From Swingsia samuiensis (GTDB taxonomy: Bacteria > Pseudomonadota > Alphaproteobacteria > Acetobacterales > Acetobacteraceae): a stretch of DNA of 64,000 nucleotides. Positions 12,190-14,267 of the stretch are shown one piece after another. The notes beneath the pieces are model-generated. The model was not told where the DNA came from. It saw only the letters and a list, made by a program, of their open reading frames with translations, and made no database searches. The position numbers were made by a program, and so were the translations under genes. Position 1 is the first letter of the stretch, and each line of letters begins with the position of its first letter. The stretch is from positions 463,501 to 527,500 of the forward strand of contig NZ_CP038141.1 of assembly GCF_006542355.1 (NCBI RefSeq). Direction: 5' to 3'.

Positions 12190-12648
12190 ATGAACTCTCG
12201 CCTTTACCCGCTGGCAACAGCACTTTTGCTTGCATCGACTCCTTTTATTACTGGGTGCAATCTCGTTGATCAGCGCACATTTAATCCCAATGCTGGAAAA
12301 CCGCCTCAACCCTACATTCCACCCGCACCTCCCGCACCTCCTGCCAAGCCTCCCTTCCTACGCATAGAAGCTGGCACCTCAGAGCATGACTACGCACCAA
12401 TTATTAAACGAGCCGTCAAAGCTGCCTTAGAGCGGAAAGAAAACGTTCTCTTCTTGGTTCAGGCCAGAGTCCCTGTGCAAGCTGATCCAGCAGCTCAAGC
12501 CAAAGCCCTCACACAAGCTACTCAATTCGAGCTTGAGCCTGTTGCACATCAGATCAATGCAGCGGGAGCGCAACCTATTCAGATTGAAATGCAAGCGATT
12601 ACCGACCCTAATACCTCACATGATTTTATTCAGGTTGATCTTCGCTAA
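12190..12648 (+). CDS. Small proline-rich lipoprotein, function unknown
   Basis: 152 residues. A signal peptide with the lipobox FITGC (cysteine at about residue 23) predicts an acylated lipoprotein. The mature part starts with a proline-rich linker (IPPAPPAPPAKPP, about 51-63), likely a spacer, followed by an alpha/beta region with GTSEHDYAPIIKRAVKAALERK and a C-terminus IEMQAITDPNTSHDFIQVDLR. No named family was recognised; the layout resembles small Acetobacteraceae outer-membrane lipoproteins. GAGG precedes the ATG. It is divergent from gap and ends in a strong hairpin. Confidence 0.75.
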   Translation: MNSRLYPLATALLLASTPFITGCNLVDQRTFNPNAGKPPQPYIPPAPPAPPAKPPFLRIEAGTSEHDYAPIIKRAVKAALERKENVLFLVQARVPVQADPAAQAKALTQATQFELEPVAHQINAAGAQPIQIEMQAITDPNTSHDFIQVDLR

Positions 12649-12733: not shown

Positions 12734-13783
12734 CTATAAAATCTTTTGCAAAATCAAACACAAAATGCAGCCCAATACTAATGATATAAGGGCTATCTTT
12801 ATATATCGTCCCCATGGCTGGACCACTGGCTGAGAAGCGACTGTTACACTCTCTCTTAATGCTGCTATTTCTTCTGCTTGATCACGGGCTTCTTCTTGCC
12901 GCTGCCAGATCCGGCCACTCATACGCCGAATATAATGCCCCGCATCTGCAGGCGTTGTAGCGGAATAATCAACTACACGTTCTGCCAGAGTACGATTAGC
13001 ACTATGCCCCAATCCCAAAATACGGTGCGCTGGGCACGAAGCAAGCGCCGTCAAAACTTCAGGTTGCTCAAAAACAACAAACTCTGATGCATCTCCTCCC
13101 CCGCGAATAATCACCAAAAGATTTTCACGGCATGATGCAACAGCATCTGCGATACGCTGGGGATCATTCATAGGAACACCGAGTGCTCTCACCCGATCCG
13201 AACGCCAAACCCCTCCTAACGCTTGTAGAAAATCCTCTACAACCAAAGCATTCGATGCAGCAGAATGAATTAAAAATATCTTTGGATCGCGCACTTCTGG
13301 ATAAGCATGAAACTCCGTTTTTAACTCACGCAAAAAATCCAGCGCTAATGTTTCATCTCTCTTTTTCTTTACATAACCAGCTTCATAAGCCTCAAGATGA
13401 AACACCTCAAAACGTAAAACAATATTTCCACGGCTATTTCTGGCTTTTAACGCCCCAATGACACGTACATGATCCCCAGAACGAATATCCGCTCCACTCA
13501 CCAAGGATTTGTTGACCTCCAAAGGAACAGAAACGCCTGTTTTGTGATCAATCAAAGGGAGCTGATAATATTTGCGATATGTATTGGGAACGATTTCACC
13601 AATCTGGCCCGACACAGCTAACGGAAACTTCCACTCATCAAAATGCATACACATTTCATCAAGACGAGCAGAAAAAAGCTCCTGCACCTGCTCTGGTGTC
13701 AGTACAGGCATAGAGGCGGAATCTTCATGCATTCCAGCCGAATCAGAACGGTAGCGTCGAGGAAAAGCGTCCATGCCCATCAT
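12734..13783 (-). CDS. Exonuclease VII large-subunit-like protein with C-terminal membrane anchor
   Basis: The order of parts matches XseA in shortened form: an OB-like N-domain (about residues 50-130; VSGQIGEIVPN is the start of the beta-barrel), a catalytic-type domain (about 165-285) with IIRGGGDASEF and ILGLGHSANRTLAERVVDYSATTPADAG, then only a short charged helix instead of the long coiled coil, and a hydrophobic segment (about 327-347, IALISLVLGCILCLILQKI) that predicts a tail anchor. The conserved GH is kept, but where classical XseA reads GHETD this protein reads GHSAN. About 350 residues against 450-plus for XseA. No xseB lies near. A start at 13783 is chosen among several close ATGs; no clear ribosome site. 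Nuclease activity is doubtful. Confidence 0.65.
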   Translation of the reverse strand: MMGMDAFPRRYRSDSAGMHEDSASMPVLTPEQVQELFSARLDEMCMHFDEWKFPLAVSGQIGEIVPNTYRKYYQLPLIDHKTGVSVPLEVNKSLVSGADIRSGDHVRVIGALKARNSRGNIVLRFEVFHLEAYEAGYVKKKRDETLALDFLRELKTEFHAYPEVRDPKIFLIHSAASNALVVEDFLQALGGVWRSDRVRALGVPMNDPQRIADAVASCRENLLVIIRGGGDASEFVVFEQPEVLTALASCPAHRILGLGHSANRTLAERVVDYSATTPADAGHYIRRMSGRIWQRQEEARDQAEEIAALRESVTVASQPVVQPWGRYIKIALISLVLGCILCLILQKIL

Positions 13784-13862
13784 ATACAAGAAAAGAACGA
13801 ATGTTCTTAAAGGTTAATTTATAAAAACTCTTAACACTTTATATTTCTGCAAAGGGATTTAA

Positions 13863-14267
13863 ATGTCTAATGATTCTATTGAGGCTATTTTAAAAAGGCT
13901 CAAACAATCTCACTTCCGCGCCCGGTTTCATCTGGACGATTTATCCAGAAAGTATATCAACCAAAACGGCCTGCCTGTTATTTTAGACCAAGGCAAAGAA
14001 TTTCTGAATAAGCGCCTCGCCCCTGCTTTCCCACCCAAAGATGGAAAACAAACGCCCATGCGAGGGCACCCTATTTTCATCGCTCAGCATGCCACAGCAT
14101 CCTGTTGCCGTTCTTGCCTCTATAAATGGCACAATATTGAAAAAAGCCGCTCATTAACTGAAAATGAAAAAGCCCGGATAATTGACATTATCCGGGCTTG
14201 GATCATTGAAGATTATGGAGAGAATCCACCCTCTTCACCAGCTCAAGAAGCTTTTTTCTTCTTCTGA
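13863..14267 (+). CDS. DUF4186 family protein
   Basis: 134 residues matching the DUF4186 family: RFRARFHL-like start (SHFRARFHLDDLSRKYI), the KRLAPAFPPKDGKQTPMRGHPIFIAQHATASCCRSCLYKWH core and a C-terminal helix ending in IIRAWI. The HATASCC-x-x-C-x-x-x-WH arrangement suggests a metal or nucleic-acid site, but the family's function is not established. AAAGGGA precedes the ATG. The last 25 nt overlap the 3' end of the convergent permease gene, and the C-terminal coding region contains the permease's terminator hairpin. The C-terminal FFFF tail is an effect of that overlap. Confidence 0.85.
   Translation: MSNDSIEAILKRLKQSHFRARFHLDDLSRKYINQNGLPVILDQGKEFLNKRLAPAFPPKDGKQTPMRGHPIFIAQHATASCCRSCLYKWHNIEKSRSLTENEKARIIDIIRAWIIEDYGENPPSSPAQEAFFFF
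14160..14199 (-). terminator. Intrinsic terminator for the permease inside the DUF4186 coding sequence
   Basis: Perfect 13-bp stem AAGCCCGGATAAT (14170-14182) / ATTATCCGGGCTT (14187-14199) with a 4-nt loop. On the minus strand the stem is followed by TTTCATTTTC, and it lies 44 nt past the permease stop at 14243. It is translated in the opposite gene as KARIIDIIRAW. Confidence 0.8.

Follow-up and report, generated by a model that had tools for sequence, protein, structure and literature searches.

Exonuclease VII is pictured as a large assembly of XseA and XseB. We take the catalytic residues of Escherichia coli XseA to be D155, R205, H238 and D241, the last of them presumably essential (residue letters are those of xseA in NC_000913). 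XseA (E. coli b2509; PDB 8txr, whose title names the H238A form of E. coli ExoVII; PF02601; TIGR00237) has the same order of an OB fold followed by a catalytic domain as the XseA-like protein described here. It is the top PDB match of our structure model and shares the equivalents of D155, R205-GGG and H238 with the XseA-like protein. Unlike XseA, the XseA-like protein has no long XseB-binding helix and no LxRGY barrel motif, carries an additional hydrophobic C-terminal helix and reads Asn for D241 and Ser for E239. OB folds are known to bind ligands of many kinds. PriB and SSB have an OB fold in common with the N-terminal domain (Z about 9-11); what they share is the fold alone, and they lack the catalytic domain and the tail. 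Further likeness is found in the forms encoded by the plasmids Sulfuricystis pSTJ1, Azospira pAZI09, Paenibacillus pSb31l and Thermus pHB5002c, which are 338-351 aa long, end in a hydrophobic helix and carry GH[TA][AG]N and RGGG. They are 27-33% identical to the query over the matched 31-79% of its length, are without the N-terminal MDAFPRR motif and lie in different gene contexts; in the Sulfuricystis and Azospira forms the coil is longer. No membrane-anchored XseA was found in the literature among the matches listed. By its sequence the XseA-like protein misses several defining XseA features and is a variant form of XseA: the gene encodes an offshoot of the exonuclease VII large subunit with a predicted tail anchor.

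The window is a stretch of 64,000 nucleotides of Swingsia samuiensis (contig NZ_CP038141.1), and the XseA-like gene lies in its minus-strand ORF 12734-13789. The likely start is ATG 13774 (MDAFPRR) rather than 13783. Elsewhere in the genus, 24 of 25 genomes have this Met as the sole ATG, GTG or TTG in frame at or before the match, the locus L015 having one additional start codon, and in L021 and L022 a TGA lies within the match and the open frame starts exactly at the equivalent of ATG 13774. We therefore place the start at this codon. The features of the gene are the following.

12734..13774, minus strand: coding sequence of the XseA-like protein, 346 aa and stop, from the frame and homologue comparison.
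13754..13774, minus strand: N-terminal motif MDAFPRR, residues 1-7; M[DE][AV]Fx[RK][RQ] in 38/38 chromosomal orthologues, query included.
13379..13633, minus strand: OB fold, residues about 48-132, PriB/SSB-like in the model.
12926..13282, minus strand: XseA-type catalytic domain, residues about 165-283, from Pfam and model, with a type II dehydroquinase-like fold.
13232..13234, minus strand: D181, equivalent of E. coli XseA D155, kept (alignment).
13094..13105, minus strand: R224-GGG, equivalent of E. coli R205-GGG, kept (alignment).
12995..13009, minus strand: GHSAN, residues 256-260, in which H257 keeps H238 and N260 replaces D241 (sequence and alignment).
12839..12925, minus strand: short charged helix, residues about 284-312, where XseA has its long XseB-binding helix (alignment and model).
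12749..12805, minus strand: C-terminal hydrophobic helix, residues 324-342, probable tail anchor (hydropathy and model).

The Pfam model Exonuc_VII_L matched the protein with 51.8 bits (cut-off 35.9) over residues 182-307 only, and the xseA equivalog model TIGR00237 gave 58.3 bits, under its cut-off of 180. The structure model m7381955b6443, built from 24 aligned sequences, has a mean pLDDT of 78.6 and a pTM of 0.49, so that its domain arrangement is not reliable. It contains an N-terminal OB fold and a dehydroquinase-like catalytic domain as in XseA, a single helix at about 275-313 and the C-terminal hydrophobic helix at about 321-345. Its top Foldseek match is E. coli ExoVII(H238A) 8txr (E 6e-17). 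VIA-align of the model with 8txr gave Z 18.1 and an rmsd of 16.7 over 281 residues; the domains thus match and their arrangement differs. Taken separately, the OB part matches PriB 4gs3 (Z 10.8, rmsd 2.3 over 83 residues) and the catalytic part matches type II dehydroquinase 6hsq (Z 10.2, rmsd 2.8 over 118 residues).

Between the catalytic domain and the tail there is a helix of about 30 residues and the long XseB-binding arm is missing. The protein family that we compared comprises 42 proteins, query included: 26 that bear the catalytic motif and 16 that have lost key residues (L057 entered the counts from an internal Met with 309 aa; its likely start gives 349 aa). The LxRGY motif of the C-terminal barrel is absent from all 42, versus 34/36 canonical XseAs which have it, and the XseA-like protein measures 346 aa versus 447 or more in the 36 canonical open frames. 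These canonical XseAs are those of E. coli, of the own genome, of four members of its taxonomic family and of 30 members of its phylum. The top 19-residue Kyte-Doolittle mean of the XseA-like protein is 2.63, at residues 324-342, a tail value reached by 1 of 2000 shuffles of the query. A best 19-mer of at least 1.6 within the last 45 residues is present in 42/42 family proteins, query included, and in 0/36 canonical XseAs. The C-terminal helix is probably a membrane tail anchor, hydrophobicity being no proof of insertion. An assembly artefact or pseudogene was ruled out, as all 42 proteins have open frames with the same tail. The original prediction had described OB-like and catalytic-type XseA domains, an almost vanished XseB-binding coiled coil, an added hydrophobic tail and a GHETD motif reading GHSAN. 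All of this is borne out: Exonuc_VII_L lies above its cut-off and the model matches 8txr, a helix of about 30 residues stands in for the coil, the tail belongs to a real reading frame, and GHSAN is found at 13009-12995. The artefactual tail that it had named as a refutation does not apply.

What the protein does is proposed from homology and conservation. We give a probability of about one in two to the reading that it is a holder of single-stranded DNA, anchored in the inner membrane and independent of XseB, whose altered pocket is used in the lineage of the window and lost elsewhere. The tail would hold the head of OB fold and catalytic domain at the cytoplasmic face of the inner membrane, the OB fold would bind single-stranded DNA without XseB, and the bound DNA would be presented to the pocket in which Asn replaces Asp. 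In the lineage of the window this pocket would still be used, whether it cleaves slowly or in an altered way or grips a DNA end; in the sister lineages it would be dead and the protein would stay as a membrane-tethered DNA holder. Counted against this proposal, the change of D241 to Asn could abolish cleavage altogether.

In the alignment, D155, R205, H238 and D241 of E. coli correspond to D181, R224, H257 and N260, so three of the four catalytic positions are kept and D241 is changed to Asn. The equivalents of D155, R205, GGG and H238 are kept in all 26 motif-bearing members (22 from Gluconobacter, window included, and four beta/gamma relatives), and all 26 carry Asn at the D241 position. As a control, D155, R205, H238, E239 and D241 are retained by 36/36 canonical XseAs. 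Since it is fixed in 26/26 members, the change to Asn is an old mark of the group and not a fresh mutation. Two Thermus plasmid proteins that are 73% identical over the aligned part read GHAAD and GHAAN, so a D/N exchange occurs naturally among close relatives and may be tolerated at this position.

Selection was estimated as dN/dS per domain by the method of Nei and Gojobori, on pairs which are non-independent. Among 14 active-motif Gluconobacter sequences (91 such pairs) the catalytic domain has a dN/dS of 0.04, the lowest among the domains; in five further Gluconobacter sequences, taken as a separate set, it is again 0.04 and the coil, with 0.03, is slightly more constrained. Because three of the four residues are kept under strong constraint, the pocket appears to matter still in the lineage of the window. 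The changed catalytic motif of the original prediction stands as to D241, and the alteration is milder than had been implied: D155, R205 and H238 are kept and the catalytic domain is strongly constrained.

The R205 equivalent is gone in 16 of the 42 proteins, four from genomes of the genus Gluconobacter and twelve from four other genera. By alignment column, these 16 proteins have D at the D155 position in one case, H at the H238 position in two and D at the D241 position in five, in a stretch that aligns poorly. Exonuc_VII_L did not match the two dead-motif proteins that were tested. The dead-motif proteins retain the N-terminal motif, the OB region, the charged helix and the tail; the strict pattern of the charged helix is found in 37/38 chromosomal proteins, the query being a near match. 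As the putative tethering part is kept where the pocket died, the leading candidate for a shared function is to hold nucleic acid at the membrane. In the dead-motif Gluconobacter subclade (5 pairs) dN/dS is 0.33 for the catalytic domain, 0.11 for the OB fold and 0.08 for the coil. Contrary to simple decay, the single pair L058/L059 of the dead-motif genus g125 has a catalytic-domain dN/dS of 0.02; the value of 0.21 for genus g57 is unreliable, its dS being above 1.2. In the gene tree the 16 proteins form one branch (84/96, with a long-branch warning). In the tree of gap and pgk the genus holds together (100/100) and the window stands outside the rest (86/70), a placement from which two losses of the key residues follow, though a single loss is not rejected (AU p 0.106). 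The residue loss supports, for the sister lineages, the non-catalytic role that the original prediction had considered.

It is unlikely, in our estimate, that the protein is a pure pseudonuclease in the lineage of the window too, with an Asn that kills cleavage and a protein that does no more than fix single-stranded DNA, or a complex of DNA and protein, at the membrane. The Asn fixed in 26/26 members at a position where D241 is invariant in 36/36 canonical XseAs speaks for it, as do the sister lineages, which dropped R205 and most other key residues and retained the remainder, and the two losses needed by the gap and pgk tree, despite its weak node and the unrejected single loss. The perfect retention of the D155, R205, GGG and H238 equivalents argues against it. 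So does the lowest dN/dS in the catalytic domain of the 14-sequence set, as a relic should relax in the way of the lost Gluconobacter subclade, and the D/N difference of the Thermus plasmid pair, from which the exchange may be tolerated.

The XseA-like gene is present in 26/26 genomes of the genus (the own genome and 25 others). Of ten genomes from other genera of the same taxonomic family, searched in the same way, eight have a short XseA-type match only and two have no match. Among 299 genomes of this family a full-length match (E under 1e-40) occurs in 19, from 5 of 102 genera, and the other matches at E 1e-10 are partial stretches within frames of 467 aa or more. At E 1e-18 a scan of 337 genomes from the class matched the own genome alone, and among 398 genomes of the phylum one other matched besides it. 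A scan of genome contigs with the single protein as query gave no confirmed relative; with an alignment as query it gave 23 loci. Twenty-one proteins of the protein family are identical to those of Gluconobacter records (20 isolates and one MAG). The order pgk, gap, small lipoprotein-like gene and XseA-like gene is found in all 21 loci titled Gluconobacter and in all 16 other loci of the genus and its sister genera (L058-L073), and the opposite flank is an amino-acid permease or an ArsC-family gene in 36/37 loci, neither being detected in L054. This conserved synteny fits vertical inheritance.

The small lipoprotein-like protein (window 12190-12648, plus strand) keeps its position in 37/37 loci (L035-L055, L058-L073) and has no match in Pfam or NCBIfam. 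In the window, the lipoprotein-like and XseA-like genes adjoin without an intervening glycosyltransferase-like gene. A glycosyltransferase-family-2-like gene lies between the two in L035 (7048-8505, minus strand) and also in L054, L058, L062, L063 and L069; the call is by Pfam for L035 alone and by frame likeness for the other five. A DUF4186 gene (window 13863-14267, plus strand) is divergent from the XseA-like gene and was detected in 21/21 titled Gluconobacter loci versus 0/16 of the loci L058-L073.

The nearest relatives outside the group are L033, L034, L056 and L057, on the plasmids Sulfuricystis pSTJ1 and Azospira pAZI09 and on two MAG contigs. Their proteins have about 350 aa, GHTGN and the same type of tail, and their common neighbours are DUF3799 (PD-(D/E)XK-like), Gp3-like and N-6 methylase genes. 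The annotation places PRTRC genes close to L033 and L034, and one extends to the edge of L056; by these annotations the nearest outside relatives belong to PRTRC-type elements of beta- and gammaproteobacteria. In the Thermus plasmid pHB5002c (12.9 kb, with an incomplete PLSDB gene table) the XseA-like gene is one of a row of genes on one strand that includes ParA, toprim and HTH genes. The relatives on plasmids suggest that the XseA-like protein first served to maintain or transfer plasmid DNA.

In the chromosomal lineage the neighbours gap, pgk, amino-acid permease and ArsC family are metabolic and give no hint of DNA work. Action on RNA, on a nucleotide signal or on a membrane-linked substrate rather than on single-stranded DNA, for which the fold would have been recruited to a new job, agrees with this neighbourhood, with a DNA link that is homology only and with the type II dehydroquinase-like fold of the catalytic domain. 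We regard it as quite improbable, in view of the retained PriB/SSB-like N-terminal domain and of the relatives on plasmids and plasmid-like contigs, whose neighbours are nuclease-like genes or else ParA and toprim genes.

The own genome has a full-length xseA at C1:1614315 (307 bits, a 484-aa frame with GHETD), for which the original prediction had proposed to look, and xseB was also found elsewhere in it; ordinary exonuclease VII is therefore already covered, and a sole XseA as refutation does not apply. A merely shortened exonuclease VII large subunit working with XseB is very improbable, Pfam Exonuc_VII_L above its cut-off and the annotation of relatives as exodeoxyribonuclease VII large subunit being outweighed by the absent XseB-binding arm, LxRGY in 0/42 versus 34/36 canonical proteins, a score far under the xseA equivalog cut-off (58.3 versus 180) and the full xseA of the genome. 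With the arm gone, a tail added, a catalytic position changed and xseA and xseB elsewhere, the protein falls outside exonuclease VII as usually understood, as had been predicted.

The predicted paralogy, understood as a copy of the own xseA, was not confirmed. A recent duplicate was ruled out: query and own XseA match over just 64 residues (about 30 bits), and the query matches a betaproteobacterial plasmid protein with 124 bits across 79% of its length (the two scores come from separate programs and databases, and the lengths alone are fairly comparable). The own XseA clusters with five other XseAs of its taxonomic family (98/98). In a tree of 141 columns with long branches, from which three dead-motif rows were excluded, a branch supported by 83/68 has the short forms on one side. 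Gluconobacter, beta/gamma, Thermus, Allomeiothermus and Bacteroidota forms make up an inner group (97/90), with the own canonical XseA elsewhere. As judged from these trees and matches, the XseA-like gene is not a recent xseA copy and is probably an old separate branch.

We examined 14 plasmid and phage proteins, hand-picked from the match lists and not random. A clear terminal hydrophobic helix is present in six (Paenibacillus, two Thermus, Prevotella, Sulfuricystis, Azospira) and absent in five (Bacteroides, Microvirga, three phage); the Allomeiothermus protein has a weaker one, and two Rhodococcus proteins have a hydrophobic helix 52-75 residues ahead of the end. Besides L033 and L034, which the family of 42 already includes, a short core with a terminal helix is found in 4 of the 12 other proteins (L078, L079, L110, L114). 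Tentatively, and with some doubt, we propose that tethered XseB-free XseA cores may be a separate, mostly plasmid-borne class in several phyla that holds or processes ends of single-stranded DNA. One copy would have been domesticated on the chromosome of the Gluconobacter group and would have decayed in some lineages to a pseudoenzyme that keeps the membrane tether, the OB fold and a short N-terminal docking motif. If true, this class is hidden under the name exodeoxyribonuclease VII large subunit, as which databases annotate the plasmid relatives; automatic annotation files them as plain exonuclease VII. A membrane-tethered branch free of XseB would, if true, separate the role of the core from that of the assembly and suggest a DNA-handling step at the membrane, for example when plasmids enter the cell or are maintained. 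In the Gluconobacter group, orthologues with an active and with a dead motif occur naturally at one locus, which allows direct functional comparison.

A phage origin was rejected: two scans of viral contigs gave no confirmed relative, and L033 as query gave one weak partial phage match. With the Paenibacillus protein as query 56 phage records matched, and the three examined (L117, L119 and L120) are without a C-terminal helix. A known defence-system protein was rejected as well: PADLOC matched neither the window protein nor L025, and its single weak match was of the L033 coil to PbeC (0.0052). In PHROGs the one strong match was phrog_9454, a generic exonuclease family, and the weak matches (0.0055 to 0.072) are of unknown function; L025 had no match there. 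The Rhodococcus plasmid proteins (L112:2521-3747, L113:2362-3747) carry GHAAD and apparently two hydrophobic helices, followed by a basic C-terminal region. The Bacteroidota plasmid proteins L114:2689-4074 and L115:2590-3636 read GHQPE and GHPEE; the former (Prevotella) combines a long, charged, coil-like stretch with a C-terminal helix, and the latter (Bacteroides) is without such a helix. Gordonia phage XseA-like proteins (L119:1036-2400, L120:1087-2253) read GHQPD and GHEND, and the L120 gene is followed by a second short gene annotated as exonuclease, which perhaps encodes an XseB-like partner.
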